Part shown: one piece after another, positions 2,450 to 61,654 of the stretch
Numbering within the stretch: the first letter of the stretch is position 1
Layout of the letters: each line of letters starts with the position of its first letter
Assembly (NCBI RefSeq): GCF_014858005.1
Contig: NZ_JACYOT010000013.1
Coordinates: forward strand, 1-64,000
Direction: 5' to 3'
Source: Propioniciclava soli
Lineage (GTDB): Bacteria; Actinomycetota; Actinomycetes; Propionibacteriales; Propionibacteriaceae
Length of the DNA stretch: 64,000 bases
Notes under the pieces: generated by a model
What the model saw: only the letters and a program-made list of their open reading frames with translations
Database searches by the model: none
What the model was told of the DNA's origin: nothing
Made by a program: the position numbers and the translations under genes

Positions 2450-3133
2450 ATGGCGGACCAGCAGCGCACGACCGCGCCGGACCCCGTGCTCGAGGACGCC
2501 TCGACGCGCGACCGGGTGGCCCGCTCGATCCTCGAGCACGGGCCGTCCACCGCGGCGGAGCTCGCCGAACGCCTCCAGCTCACCCCGGCCGCGATCCGCC
2601 GGCACCTGGCGGTGCTGATCGAGGTGGGCCACCTGGGCTCTCGCGACCAGCGCGTCTACGGCCAGCGGGGGCGTGGGCGTCCGGCCAAGGTGTTCTACCT
2701 CACCGACACCGGCCGTGCCGAGTTCTACCAGTCCTACGACCAGCTCGCGATCCGTGCGCTGGAGTTCCTGCGCGACCGCGGCGGCGAGCAGGCCGTCGTC
2801 GCGTTCGCCGAGCAGACGATGCAGGAGGTCGCGCACCGGTTCGCCGATGACGACCGGGAATACGCCTCGCCCGTCGAGGCGTTGACCGAGGTGCTGAACG
2901 AGCAGGGGTTCGTCGCCTCGCTGCAGCCGGTCGCGTCCGGGACGCAGCTGTGCCAGTACCACTGCCCGGTCGCGCACGTCGCCCGCGAGTTCCCCGAACT
3001 CTGCGTGGCGGAGACGCGGATGTTTTCGGAGTTGCTGGGCAGTCACGTCCAGCGGCTCGCCACGATCGCCCATGGCGACGGGGTGTGCACCACGCACGTC
3101 CCGCGCCCGGTTCACCCAGAAAGGTCCGAGTAG
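2450..3133 (+). CDS. sufR: SufR-type Fe-S responsive transcriptional repressor
   Basis: First gene of the SUF operon, 227 aa. A winged helix-turn-helix occupies about residues 20-75 (TAAELAERLQLTPAAIRRHL), with the basic wing RGRGRPAK following. The C-terminal part carries Cys168, Cys172, Cys185 and Cys213, the kind of cysteine cluster SufR proteins use to bind an Fe-S cluster and sense cluster sufficiency. The start at 2450 is preferred over an in-frame ATG at 2417 because GGAGGGG lies just upstream of 2450. The stop codon abuts the sufB ATG with no intervening base, so translation is probably coupled. It likely represses the operon through the inverted repeat at 2408-2429. Confidence 0.93.
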   Translation: MADQQRTTAPDPVLEDASTRDRVARSILEHGPSTAAELAERLQLTPAAIRRHLAVLIEVGHLGSRDQRVYGQRGRGRPAKVFYLTDTGRAEFYQSYDQLAIRALEFLRDRGGEQAVVAFAEQTMQEVAHRFADDDREYASPVEALTEVLNEQGFVASLQPVASGTQLCQYHCPVAHVAREFPELCVAETRMFSELLGSHVQRLATIAHGDGVCTTHVPRPVHPERSE

Positions 3134-38251: not shown

Positions 38252-39031
38252 TCAGGCGTGCCCGGCGGCGTCGCCTGCGGTGTCGCCCGCGGCGCGGGCC
38301 TTCACCCGGGCGCGGTCGCGCAGGTCGTTGCGGATCAGCACCACCAGGCCGATGCCCGCGATGGCGGTGAACGCGAACCATTGCAGGGCGTACGACAGGT
38401 GCGGACCCTCGTCCTGCGGGGGTGGCTCGACGACCAGGAACGGGCCGTCCTGCGGCGGATCGGAGCTGATGAGGCCGATGTAGCCGCTCACGACGTCGCG
38501 GCCGAGCCAGCTCCCGATGGCGGCCGCGTTGATGAGCCGAACCGTGTCGTTGGTGTCGGGCGACGGGGTCAGGGCGTTCTCGGGGCCCTGCTCGTCGCGC
38601 CGCACGTAGCCCACCACGGTGACCTCACCGGCCGGCGGGGCGGGCAGGGCGCTCGGGAAGTCCTGGTTGCGGGGGCGTTCGACGAAACCGCGGTCGATGA
38701 GCACGGTGGTGCCGTCGGCGGTGGTGAGCGGGGTCACCAGCTCCCACCCGGTCATCCCGCCCTCGGAGCGGTAGCGCACCTGCACCTGGCGCTCCGCGTC
38801 ATAGGTGCCCGTGACACTGACGCGCTGCCACTGGTCGTGCTCCTCGATCTCCCCGGTGAACACCTGCTCGAAGGCGACGACGGGCGCGCTCTCGTGCTCG
38901 AGCACGGTCTCGTTGCGGTCCCGGCGCTGGTCGAGCCGGTCGAGCTGCCAGCGGCCGAGGTTCACGAACGTCACGGCGAGCGCCACGACGAAGACGGTGA
39001 GCAGCAGCCACCGCAGCCAGGGTCCTTTCAT
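38252..39031 (-). CDS. SURF1 family cytochrome oxidase assembly protein
   Basis: 259 aa with transmembrane helices at both ends (about residues 8-25 and 212-232) and an extracytoplasmic domain between, the SURF1 layout. Motifs NLGRWQLDRLDQR, VLIDRGFV and the C-terminal HLSYALQWFAFTAIA are clear. It assists haem a insertion into aa3-type oxidase, implying an aerobic chain. ATG 39031 shares a base with the DUF3099 stop. Confidence 0.93.
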   Translation of the reverse strand: MKGPWLRWLLLTVFVVALAVTFVNLGRWQLDRLDQRRDRNETVLEHESAPVVAFEQVFTGEIEEHDQWQRVSVTGTYDAERQVQVRYRSEGGMTGWELVTPLTTADGTTVLIDRGFVERPRNQDFPSALPAPPAGEVTVVGYVRRDEQGPENALTPSPDTNDTVRLINAAAIGSWLGRDVVSGYIGLISSDPPQDGPFLVVEPPPQDEGPHLSYALQWFAFTAIAGIGLVVLIRNDLRDRARVKARAAGDTAGDAAGHA

Positions 39032-39447
39032 CACGCCGCCTCCGGGTGCGGGCCGGCCTCACCCGGCACCACGCCGTTCTGTGCGACCTCACCTGGCACG
39101 ACCTCACCCTGCACGACCTCACCCGGCACGACCTCACCCGGCACCACGTCGCCGGGCACGACGTCGCCCGCGCCCAGGGCGAGTTGGGGGGGCGGTTGCT
39201 GGGCGTCGGGGGCGGTGGGCTCGAGGTGGTTGTCGCGGGCGTTGCCGAGCAGCACGGCGATGGCGGGGAGCAGGGCGGCGGCCAGGAAGCACAAGAGGTT
39301 GTACGGCAGGGGCGCGAAGAGCCCGGCCAGGAACGCCACGACGCGGAACGCCATGGTCCACAGGTACCGACGCTCGCGGGCGTCCGCGGACAGCGTTGTG
39401 CCGTACCGCGCGTCGGTGATGATGGTGGGCCGCATCCGCGAAACCAT
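39031..39447 (-). CDS. DUF3099 membrane protein with VPGE-type repeats
   Basis: 138 aa. Residues 1-65 form the DUF3099 core (PTIITDARYGTTLSADARERRYL) and two transmembrane helices. The tail from about residue 95 consists of pentapeptide repeats of the form VVPGE/VVPGD, encoded by 15-bp DNA repeats. ATG 39447 is 7 nt after a TAGGCT box. Function unknown; it is co-translated with SURF1 and divergent from fabG. Confidence 0.87.
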   Translation of the reverse strand: MVSRMRPTIITDARYGTTLSADARERRYLWTMAFRVVAFLAGLFAPLPYNLLCFLAAALLPAIAVLLGNARDNHLEPTAPDAQQPPPQLALGAGDVVPGDVVPGEVVPGEVVQGEVVPGEVAQNGVVPGEAGPHPEAA

Positions 39448-41913: not shown

Positions 41914-42378
41914 GTGGCGGAGTGGATCCAGCAGAACCTGTGGGCCATCTGGCTGATCGCGGCGGGCGGCTTGGCCGTCTCGGAGATGCTGACCCTTGAC
42001 CTGACCCTGCTGATGCTGGCCGGCGGCGCCCTCGCCGGGGCCGCGACGGCCCTGGTGCTGCCGGGGTTGATCTGGGTGCAGGTGATCGTGGCGCTGGTGG
42101 TGGCCGTGGCGCTGTTGGGGGTGCTGCGGCCCGAGCTGGTCAAGCGCCTGCACCGGGGGCCGGGGTACCGCAGCTCCGTGGACAACCTGTTGGGGAGCAC
42201 CGGCTTCGCCACCCGCGAGATCACGGCTGCCGGCGGTGAGGTGAAGATCGCGGGTGAATCGTGGTCGGCGCGCAGCTACGACGGAGACCCCATCGCGGCG
42301 GGGGTCGAGGTCGAGGTGTTCGAGATCGACGGCGTCACGGTCGTCGTCTACCCCCGCCACAAGCCCCTGGGCAGCTGA
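41914..42378 (+). CDS. NfeD family membrane protein
   Basis: 154 aa. Two to three helices (about residues 9-75) precede a C-terminal OB-fold with the NfeD sequence LLGSTGFATREI and GESWSARSYDGDPIAAG. These proteins associate with SPFH/stomatin membrane scaffolds. The SPFH gene is indeed downstream, but about 800 bp away across a repeat-rich segment, unlike the close spacing usual for this pair (compare Rv1487-Rv1488). Confidence 0.9.
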   Translation: MAEWIQQNLWAIWLIAAGGLAVSEMLTLDLTLLMLAGGALAGAATALVLPGLIWVQVIVALVVAVALLGVLRPELVKRLHRGPGYRSSVDNLLGSTGFATREITAAGGEVKIAGESWSARSYDGDPIAAGVEVEVFEIDGVTVVVYPRHKPLGS

Positions 42379-42394: not shown

Positions 42395-42462
42395 CGACAC
42401 GCTCGCTTGTGTCTCAAACTCCAGGTTCGGAGGCGGAGTTTGGGGCACATGGCAGCGTGTCG
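42395..42462. repeat. long imperfect hairpin after nfeD
   Basis: CGACACGCT pairs with AGCGTGTCG; after a 4x4 internal loop, TGTGTCTCAAACTCC pairs with GGAGTTTGGGGCACA (two G-U pairs in RNA) around a 12-nt loop. It begins 17 nt after the nfeD stop. No T-run follows. It may be a U-less terminator or a structured RNA element. Confidence 0.75.
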
Positions 42463-42548: not shown

Positions 42549-42985
42549 TCCCTGCCGCACGACCCGCCACCCTGCCGATCCGATCGCTTCCCTGCCCGAC
42601 GCCCGCCACCCTGCCGATCCGATCGCCCCCCTGCCCGACGTCCACCACCCTGCCGTTGCAACGGCAGGGTGGTGGGTTGTCGATGGGGTGGTGATGCCAA
42701 GGGCAGGGTGGCGGCGCGACGGGCAGGGTGGTGACGCCAAGGGCAGGGTGGCGGTGCCGCGACGGGCAGGGTGGCGGCGCGACGGGCAGGGTGGTGATGC
42801 CAAGGGCAGGGTGGCGGTGCCGCGACGGGCAGGGTGGCGGCGCGACGGGCAGGGTGGTGATGCCAAGGGCAGGGTGGCGGTGCCGCGACGGGCAGGGTGG
42901 CGGCGCGACGGGCAGGGTGGTGATGCCAAGGGCAGGGTGGCGGTGCCGCGACGGGCAGGGTGGTGATGTCACGGGCAGGGCGGTG
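42549..42985. repeat. intergenic tandem array with GGGCAGGGTGG core and orientation switch
   Basis: About six copies of the core in reverse orientation (CCACCCTGCC or CCCTGCCC, near 42549-42658) meet about fifteen forward copies at a perfect 34-bp palindrome (42642-42675). The forward part includes a 63-bp unit with subunits of 20, 23 and 20 bp, repeated from 42721, 42784, 42847 and 42910 with one T/C change. The flanks 42463-42548 and 42986-43140 hold no gene that I can support. Confidence 0.93.
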
Positions 42986-43183
42986 GCGCTTGAGCCAGGG
43001 ACGCGGCGCGCAAGGCCAGGCAGGCGACACCTTGGCCACGGCGGGATCGCCCCGAGGCAGGTGACTGGGCAGCGCCGCCGACGTGGATGGGACGCGAACC
43101 CGGACCGCCCGAGCGCCGTCGCCCTGGGTGCTGGCGTCGGTGGATAGGGTGGGGGAAAAGCACCAAAGGAGATGAGGCACCCC

Positions 43184-44407
43184 ATGCCAGAAGTGACGTT
43201 CGCGCTCCTCGCGATTCTCGCCGTGGTGGCGGTGGTCGCGATGGCCCTCTCGATTCGGGTCGTGCAGCAGATGCAGGTGGGCATCGTGCAGCGGCTCGGC
43301 AAGTTCCATCGGACGATCGAGCCCGGGCTGCACCTGATCGTGCCGTTCATCGACCGGGTCCGCTACACCATGGACATGCGCGAGGCGGTCGTGCCGTTCC
43401 CGCCGCAGGGCGTCATCACCGAGGACAACCTGATGGTGGGCATCGACTCGGTCATCTACTACCAGATCGTCGATCCGGTCCGCGCCGCGTACGAGGCCCA
43501 GAACTACATCCAGGCCATCGAGCAGCTGACCATGACCACGCTGCGCAACATCATCGGCGGCATGGACCTCGAGCAGACCCTCACCAGCCGCGAGGAGATC
43601 AACCAGAAGCTCCGCTCGGTGCTCGACGAGGCGACCGGCAAGTGGGGCATCAAGGTGAACCGTGTCGAGCTGCGCTCGATCGAGCCGCCGGCCACGATCC
43701 GCGACGCCATGGAGAAGGGCGCCCGCGCCGAGCGCGAGAAGCGCGCCCAGATCTTGCTCGCCGAGGGCCAGCGTCAGTCCCAGATCCTCAGCGCGTCCGG
43801 TGACCGCGAGTCGAGCATTCTCCGCGCCCAGGGCGAGCGGGAGTCCGCTGTCCTCCGCGCGCAGGCCGATCGGCAGGCGTCCATGCTGCGCGCCGAGGGC
43901 GAGGCGCAGGCCATCACGACCGTGTTCGGTGCGATCCACGCGTCCGAGCCGGACGAGGGTCTGCTCGCCTACCAGTACCTGCAGATGCTGCCGCAGCTCG
44001 CGAAGGGCGACTCGAACAAGGTCTGGGTCATCCCGTCCGAGCTGAACGACGCCCTCAAGGGCCTCGGCTCGACCGCCGGCGAGGCCGTCAGCCGGTTCGC
44101 CGGCCAGAAGGCGGACCCGGCCAAGTACTCCGCCCCCGAGAAGGTCGACGTGTTCGCCGAGATCGAGGCGTCCAAGCGGGCCGAGGAGGCCGAGTCGGCC
44201 AAGAGCGTCAACCAGGCGATCGCCGAGGCGCAGAAGATCGAGCAGGGCAAGGCCGCTCGGCTGGCGAGCCCGGCGCTCACCACCGGCACCGATGAGGTGG
44301 TCGACCCCGTCGCCGATCTCCTCCCGGACGCGGGCGGCGCCAGTGTGGCCACCCAGCCCGAGGCCGCGTCCCAGGACGCGTCCCAGCAGCAGGCCGAGGA
44401 CGCCTGA
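43184..44407 (+). CDS. SPFH domain (stomatin-like) membrane scaffold protein
   Basis: 407 aa. One N-terminal helix (about 5-24), an SPFH domain (RVVQQMQVGIVQRLGKFHRT onward to about 190) and a long charged coiled coil (195-250) rich in EGxRQSxIL/ExxSxLRA repeats; an Ala/Gln-rich tail ends it. Such proteins form oligomeric rings or microdomains in the membrane with NfeD partners. ATG 43184 is preferred over 43172, since the ribosome site GAGG abuts the earlier codon. TAGGGT at 43146 may be its -10. Confidence 0.93.
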   Translation: MPEVTFALLAILAVVAVVAMALSIRVVQQMQVGIVQRLGKFHRTIEPGLHLIVPFIDRVRYTMDMREAVVPFPPQGVITEDNLMVGIDSVIYYQIVDPVRAAYEAQNYIQAIEQLTMTTLRNIIGGMDLEQTLTSREEINQKLRSVLDEATGKWGIKVNRVELRSIEPPATIRDAMEKGARAEREKRAQILLAEGQRQSQILSASGDRESSILRAQGERESAVLRAQADRQASMLRAEGEAQAITTVFGAIHASEPDEGLLAYQYLQMLPQLAKGDSNKVWVIPSELNDALKGLGSTAGEAVSRFAGQKADPAKYSAPEKVDVFAEIEASKRAEEAESAKSVNQAIAEAQKIEQGKAARLASPALTTGTDEVVDPVADLLPDAGGASVATQPEAASQDASQQQAEDA

Positions 44408-61443: not shown

Positions 61444-61510
61444 CGCCGGGTGGACCATGCCGGCACGCCCTTAGCCGAGCCGGACGCTCCTGTCGTGGCG
61501 CAGGCATGCC

Positions 61511-61654
61511 GACGTGGCGCACGCAACCCCCACCTGGCGCACGCAAACCCCACGTGGCGCACGCAAACCCCACGTGGCGCAGTGGAGCCCACGTGGCGCA
61601 GTGGAGCCCACGTGACGAGGGGGTGCGCCACGAGACGAGGGGGTGCGCCACGTG
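61511..61654. repeat. intergenic array with GTGGCGCA core in both orientations
   Basis: Three 20-bp units of CACGTGGCGCACGCAAACCC type (first two with small changes), two 19/20-bp units of ACGTGGCGCAGTGGAGCCC, then two 20-bp units with the inverse core TGCGCCAC. The central switch and the ~20-bp period parallel the array at 42549-42985. The rest of the gap 61444-61786 contains only a promoter region. Confidence 0.9.

Follow-up and report, generated by a model that had tools for sequence, protein, structure and literature searches.

A phased dyad array between an NfeD-like and an SPFH gene, the dispersed repeat family to which it belongs, and a possible AbiEi-like partner

Among described bacterial systems, REP/REPIN elements, REPtrons and BIMEs come closest to the element analyzed here. 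According to one account (PMC3733652), these are dispersed, lineage-specific intergenic palindromes, found mostly between convergent or co-directional genes; REPtrons combine a gene bracketed by repeats with many solitary copies elsewhere, and REPs of the CGTC class are reported there without a dedicated transposase. Two kinds of DNA-binding protein also serve as points of reference. AbiEi proteins, which together with Rv2827c represent the antitoxins of type IV AbiE systems, are described as binding 23-bp inverted repeats at their own promoters (PMC7319586), and BldC as binding direct repeats head to tail, in variable number and cooperatively along the DNA (PMC5859096). The arrays presented below resemble REPs in being dispersed, lineage-specific, palindromic and intergenic, with few copies between divergent genes, and REPtrons in that a bracketed gene is accompanied by many solitary copies. 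In contrast to REP/RAYT systems, their units are phased and point outward rather than forming hairpins, and the candidate partner is an AbiEi-like gene. This protein shares with type IV antitoxins its matches to AbiEi models, but no AbiEii gene is recognized alongside it, it carries an extra conserved C-terminal region, and its repeats lie on both sides of the gene and are dispersed as well. Like BldC sites, the arrays consist of direct repeats in variable number; the BldC repeats, however, span about 9 bp, include an AATT half and are described from promoters (PMC5859096), whereas the units here recur every 20 bp, are GC-rich and are arranged with dyad symmetry. The open-licence literature searched holds no description of phased dyad arrays or of repeats bracketing AbiEi-like genes in these bacteria, nor any paper combining AbiEi with DUF559, and the term "undescribed element", used for the array in an earlier note on this DNA, is fitting.

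The window, i.e. the whole stretch of 64,000 nucleotides analyzed here, belongs to a draft genome of 3.80 Mb in 65 contigs; among the close relatives of this genome, the named ones are Propioniciclava species. The features of the array and its surroundings are listed in Table 1. The 63-bp tandem array and the perfect 34-bp palindrome proposed in the earlier note are both borne out, the former by TRF with a period of 63 bp and 96% matches. At one mismatch or fewer, GGGCAGGGTGG occurs at 22 sites of the window, compared with 4.18 +/- 1.77 in shuffled sequences (maximum 8). Nineteen of these sites lie within the array, 15 forward and 4 reverse, with only 13 exact copies; two additional reverse units carry a GGGAAG variant. 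The total of six reverse units agrees with the six reversed and fifteen forward copies counted before, while the designation of the palindrome as a "switch" is without support. It is unlikely that the array is an assembly artefact, because about 30 loci of the genome share its architecture with different spacers.

Table 1. Features of the array region and of the second array in the window (positions refer to the window).
Feature	Position	Strand	Remarks
NfeD-like gene	41914-42378	+	PF01957 match; left neighbour, outside the element
Left arm	42549-42641	-	outward GGCAGGGnGG and GGCAGGGAAG variants, spacing 19-20 bp
Core	42642-42675	.	perfect 34-bp palindrome, half-length 17, TTGCAA centre; one of about 30 cores in the genome
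Right arm	42676-42985	+	outward GGCAGGGnGG units, spacing mostly 20 bp
63-bp block (20+20+23)	42701-42985		right-arm end; 4.5 copies in the draft assembly
SPFH/Band_7 gene	43172-44407 (start 43172 or 43184)	+	PF01145 match; right neighbour, outside the element
Family B array	61494-61652	.	CACGTGGCGCA / TGCGCCACGTG units, degenerate core

Two other repeats were noticed in the window. An imperfect inverted repeat, TGTCTCAAACTCC ... GGAGTTTGGGGCACA, lies just past the NfeD-like gene (42408-42449) and is perhaps another dispersed element; a tandem repeat of 15/30 bp (39057-39170) is located close to where a coding frame on the minus strand (39031-39435) has its 3' end.

The array belongs to a family, termed A, that is dispersed in its own genome. 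A degenerate palindrome pattern yields 32 matches there and none for the reversed control; 30 were kept after C63:69648 and C63:203296 had been dropped as non-arrays. The same search in 56 other genomes finds six matches in the closest relative, G002 (five kept, L193 dropped), and one or two in each of ten genomes, where control counts are similar. Likewise, a pattern of three phased units has 125 matches in the own genome and none for the reversed control, compared with one or two matches in five of 292 other genomes of the order, where the control gives one to four in three. Pairs of core words 20 bp apart are also found elsewhere in the own genome. The single word GCGTTGCAACGC is less telling (22 occurrences versus 14 for the control, and other genomes not above control), and in-phase pairs of GGGAAGTGGC are hardly present in G002. 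The neighbours of the 30 arrays are ordinary genes with no common family beyond two weak pairs. At the 29 arrays with both neighbours called, gene orientation is convergent in 12 cases, co-directional in 12 and divergent in five. Convergent gaps are thus more frequent than in a 400-kb sample (12/29 versus 53/287; Fisher p=0.007); the comparison of convergent with divergent sites alone gives p=0.07. A third intergenic repeat of another geometry, with TTGTGCATGGGTTnTCGACG blocks, accompanies family A in six loci (L174, L180, L181, L188, L195 and L204).

How the window array relates to its neighbours is seen from 80 related loci. In 76 of them, SPFH is preceded by an upstream NfeD gene, the gap being at most 250 bp in 75 of the 76 (median 24.5), which upholds the previous statement that the two genes are normally adjacent. 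The one exception is L086 from Propioniciclava tarda, where a large gene, phosphoketolase-like by eye, separates the pair (gap 2678 bp). Measured alike to position 43172, the gap in the window is 793 bp; in G002 (L124) it is 34 bp. Since the two genes are nearly adjacent in related loci and the closest relative has so short a gap, the array region is most simply interpreted as a gain in the own lineage. The reverse case exists at the SIR2-nagA site, where G002 contains an array and the own genome none, so that arrays differ in presence between these two genomes in both directions. No target-site duplication is visible by eye in flanks that are too diverged for a fair comparison. Locally, the effect of the array is probably passive, i.e. 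it separates NfeD from SPFH, and our guess is that SPFH is driven by its own promoter after this separation. A specific regulator of SPFH, as the earlier note had considered, is unlikely, because the same element adjoins about 30 unrelated gene pairs and is enriched in convergent gaps. A TAGGGT promoter box before SPFH, which initially appeared in four of seven loci, was rejected as a conserved feature: it occurs in 5 of 80 loci overall, compared with 3 of 80 for a control word.

The geometry of family A is regular. The motif AGGGnGG lies at positions 27, 47, 67, 87, 107 and 127 from the dyad in 41, 43, 32, 16, 10 and 5 of 60 arms, and elsewhere in at most three arms; beyond the core, the motif is oriented outward in 168 cases and inward in one. 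Units thus step out from each dyad by 19 bp and then by 20 and 20 bp. Because the cores were found using positions 1-14 only, the outer phasing is not circular. In the right arm, the motif positions of units 2 and 3 mostly have an information content of 1-2.5 bits, except for the variable n (somewhat less in the left arm), whereas the spacers of these units mostly stay below 0.6 bits, with the exception of an A one step ahead of the motif. In the blocks compared, the identity between left and right arms of a locus is at the level of shuffled loci (core 0.758 versus 0.767), with one single arm position above it (p 0.07-0.11). The arms therefore vary independently, as expected from a repeated half-site symmetry and not from a maintained stem; together, phasing and missing covariation argue for putative half-sites read by a protein on double-stranded DNA rather than for a hairpin. 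Among the three functions that had been suggested for the locus, a multivalent protein-binding site is hence the best, as it would suit phased units that do not covary. Of the suggested recombination-active minisatellite, only the recent expansion of near-identical 63-bp blocks stands.

A second family, B, repeats this geometry, and one of its arrays lies in the window (Table 1). Its word TGCGCCACGTG occurs as 153 exact 11-mers in the own genome compared with 11 for the control, and near background in other genomes; it probably has more members than family A. TGCA was part of the pattern by which its 16 cores were found; beyond that pattern, the arrays show steps of 19, 20 and 20 bp, with 72 outward units and none inward. 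Family B loci include L003, L175, L178, L179, L185, L236, L237, L243, L245 and L246. In L178, two near-alike intergenic regions (at 3015 and 3984), each containing one array of family B and one of family A, surround one gene, peptidase S51-like by eye, and the region looks as if duplicated. No AbiEi-like partner was found for family B; the one match in 400 kb of the own genome is a partial frame described below.

A motif-blind detector of phased dyads, applied to 400 kb of the own genome, reports six TGCA sites with three-unit scores of at least 46. Both families are represented among them, and 11 other tetranucleotides have no such site. In the window, the degenerate array of family B obtained its score with an ACGT centre. 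At 44 or more, the detector finds three TGCA, three CGCG, one GTAC and one CCGG site in 0.9 Mb from 180 loci of other genomes and is non-specific, the five non-TGCA matches coming from ordinary tandem repeats. Arm identity alone gives no clear separation of TGCA from other dyads. Locus L155 of a Propioniciclava-like genome (G004) contains a possible TGCA-dyad array at about 1512 (score 46). In Kribbella (G023), locus L272 contains a head-to-head array with a 20-bp period (CTTGGGGTTCGCCCCCTTGT) at about 1450-1660 that has no TGCA centre; the surrounding 400 kb were sampled and yielded no AbiEi-like gene.

One site in the genome links the arrays to a particular gene. Between the genes for PNPase and dapB, a single AbiEi-like gene is flanked by two arrays both in the own genome (L196) and in G002 (L191); in the former, at least one further gene separates the second array from dapB. 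The unit motifs differ: GGCAGGGnGG in the own genome, GGGAAGTGG and AGGTnAGTGG in G002. At the same site in G020, a member of another genus of the family, the AbiEi-like gene lies between two dyads with GGGTAGCGAAGCG units, and in G001 and G009 between single or short dyads with still other motifs (those of G001a and G009 partly judged by eye, one core being TTGCGA). Altogether, the gene was detected at the PNPase site in 5 of 14 genomes searched there. The rarity of such dyads was estimated in 400-kb stretches, with a cut-off of 33 that was picked after the scores had been seen. A stretch of G001, chosen by coordinates and irrespective of its genes, has 981 TGCA sites, of which 3 attain 33 or more in the two-unit score. 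The sole AbiEi-like gene of the stretch is flanked by two of these, while the remaining one is a copy of their motif that stands alone. G020 has 3 of 1,120 such sites, i.e. the two known ones and one solitary copy. The own genome has 6 of 940, G005 one solitary array, and 400 kb of the Kribbella genome no TGCA array.

The bracketing was then quantified across Actinomycetota. A flank score was defined as that of the best local alignment between the two 500-bp stretches on either side of a gene, with 727 genes from five Propionibacteriales genomes as controls; that these do not come from the organisms of the plasmid collection is a weakness of the comparison. With a cut-off of 47, set post hoc, 13 of 16 AbiEi-like genes pass, compared with 3 of 727 controls (99th percentile 42.7). 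Ten of the first 12 genes reach 47, as do three of four fetched later (52, 69 and 87, the fourth having 33); an earlier version with 400-bp flanks gave 7 of 10. The genes from the own genome and G002 were chosen via their arrays, those from G001a, G009 and G020 via synteny, and 11 irrespective of repeats, nine of which pass. For G001a and G009, one flank comprised only 307 and 401 bp rather than 500. The failures are G009 L299 (22), Tsukamurella L377 (24) and Nonomuraea L385 (33), the latter two among the 11. Left out of the 16 was a partial AbiEi-like frame of the own genome, the sole AbiEi-like match in 400 kb, with 199 residues and no C-terminal region, which is not bracketed (score 34).

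The genes outside the family were obtained by tblastn in the plasmid collection, from records of Tsukamurella, Collinsella, Arthrobacter and Nonomuraea, and one further gene came from a Nocardioides locus retrieved via SPFH. Palindromes bracket the AbiEi/DUF559-like genes in L384, L382, L383, L381 and L380 (Tsukamurella, Arthrobacter, Collinsella). In the plasmid collection, the repeats flanking the genes of Tsukamurella L384 and L379 and of Collinsella L380 have 18, 13 and 18 matches, all in records of their own organism; since palindromes match on both strands, the true numbers of sites are below these counts. Outside Propionibacteriaceae, the genes are flanked by palindromes or by arrays with a different geometry, so that it is the bracketing that generalizes and not the 20-bp array. 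No AbiEi-like gene was found in phages or viral contigs. For the array itself, a phage origin was dismissed for want of any phage match, and a plasmid origin because the plasmid collection yields a single match, Nonomuraea L291, whose 21-bp repeat is similar in composition.

The protein from the PNPase site of the own genome, encoded on the minus strand of G000:C8 at about 116875-117825, has about 310 residues and an AbiEi_4 winged-helix domain scoring 28.9 bits against a cut-off of 25; the G020 protein reaches 34.0 bits. Below 25 are G001a (23.6), G009 (22.9), G002 (16.2) and G001b (13.3), and none of six outside members scanned attains the gathering score. The PADLOC models for AbiEi are matched by all four proteins scanned. 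In the C-terminal region, 12 proteins share the pattern E..D..(E)xDG..(K)..R, in which E208, D241, D254, G255 and R279 (L123 numbering) are invariant and E252 and K258 nearly so. We take these residues to resemble a PD-(D/E)XK site, a signature that would make the C-terminus nuclease-like. All C-terminal Pfam matches are below cut-off: Collinsella L380 matches DUF559 with E 0.022 and Arthrobacter L381 MTES_1575 with E 0.0042, and the weak matches in Collinsella and Arthrobacter L381 span E 0.0042-0.11. Both models represent restriction-endonuclease-like families; this activity of the AbiEi-like proteins is putative. A PDB search was empty, and a structure model of the Nocardioides member (mean pLDDT 34) was unusable. 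No AbiEii (DUF1814) toxin neighbour is annotated in six records, and neither three hypothetical neighbours nor a ligase-like neighbour in the own genome match a PADLOC model.

As for the likeness to REPs, the RAYT domain Y1_Tnp (PF01797) was found in none of 30 genomes including the own one, while 5 of 14 control genomes were positive, and no constant GTAG/CGTC end is seen by eye in the 30 cores, all of which are palindromic. As the own genome and 29 relatives lack a Y1 transposase domain, membership in REP/RAYT was rejected. Because the plan is that of a REPtron and yet no RAYT domain occurs in these genomes, we favour a selfish, REPtron-like system with an AbiEi-like enzyme in place of RAYT, and we consider it probable that the window array is a solitary, expanded copy of such a system. 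The element would be a dispersed, lineage-specific TGCA-centred dyad with half-sites repeated outward every 19-20 bp, about two helical turns. Since the promoters of AbiEi genes contain inverted repeats to which the AbiEi proteins bind (in the account cited above), the bracketed AbiEi-like protein, with its N-terminal winged HTH and its C-terminal PD-(D/E)XK-like signature, is a natural candidate for the cognate factor. It may bind the half-sites by nucleation at the dyad and subsequent coverage of the arms. The gene with its flanking elements would form the autonomous unit, and the solitary arrays its non-autonomous offspring, inserted between genes and then lengthened via unequal exchange or slippage; cutting and mobility of this kind are putative. 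Accounted for in this manner, the NfeD-SPFH array would be a solitary copy gained between both genes and lengthened afterwards. Extending this scheme is more tentative: with somewhat less than even confidence, we suggest that populations of REP-like repeats across Actinomycetota are made and maintained by a second enzyme family, independent of RAYT and consisting of orphan AbiEi/DUF559-like proteins. Motif and protein would co-evolve fast, and in some lineages the repeats would have become TGCA-centred phased nucleoprotein arrays, including that between NfeD and SPFH.

An explanation that overlaps with the favoured one is homing, i.e. an AbiEi-like nuclease gene that inserted itself into pre-existing repeats of other origin, which would then be its targets and not its products. 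Insertion into an array would indeed yield matching repeats on both sides, and the nuclease-like signature is conserved. By itself, however, homing explains neither repeats that match the own organism only nor the different motif of each genome at one and the same site, and we regard it as a possible but rather unlikely account.

It is also doubtful, to a slightly greater degree, that the arrays are chromatin or insulator sites of the host, where a nucleoid-type or regulatory protein polymerizes outward from the dyad at the ends of genes and the AbiEi-like genes owe their bracketing to autoregulation. The exact 20-bp phasing, the outward polarity and the absence of covariation would all suit such a role, as would the preference for convergent gaps, which weakens when convergent sites are set against divergent ones alone; the head-to-tail binding described for BldC (PMC5859096) offers a precedent. 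On the other hand, the arrays are lineage-specific and unstable between close relatives, and operators account only for the upstream repeats: autoregulation is insufficient because matching downstream copies and dispersed copies are left unexplained.

Bidirectional transcription terminators or RNA hairpins would benefit from the same convergent preference, and the palindrome in the window would by itself fold into a strong stem. We nevertheless reject them as improbable, since arms that do not covary indicate that pairing is not maintained; furthermore, no T-run is seen in the sequence past the window core, and Rfam returns only matches to miRNA models, far below gathering scores. Functionless minisatellites spread neutrally by chance and slippage are the least credible alternative and highly improbable: the 63-bp blocks are 96% alike, but a motif conserved against variable spacers at fixed phase in 30 loci, a second family of the same geometry and matching motifs around AbiEi-like genes already disfavour them.

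Bacteria commonly contain REP-like repeats. If the REPtron-like system favoured here is confirmed, its partner gene, which would be of a second kind, nuclease-like in signature and bracketed by its own repeats, would allow tests of where intergenic palindromes that still lack an explanation come from. It would likewise account for a number of orphan genes annotated as "AbiEi antitoxin", and the proteins would constitute a natural collection of DNA-binding proteins of fast-changing specificity whose targets adjoin their own genes. REP/REPtron is the nearest model at present; proof of the enzyme link would turn these elements into a distinct class.
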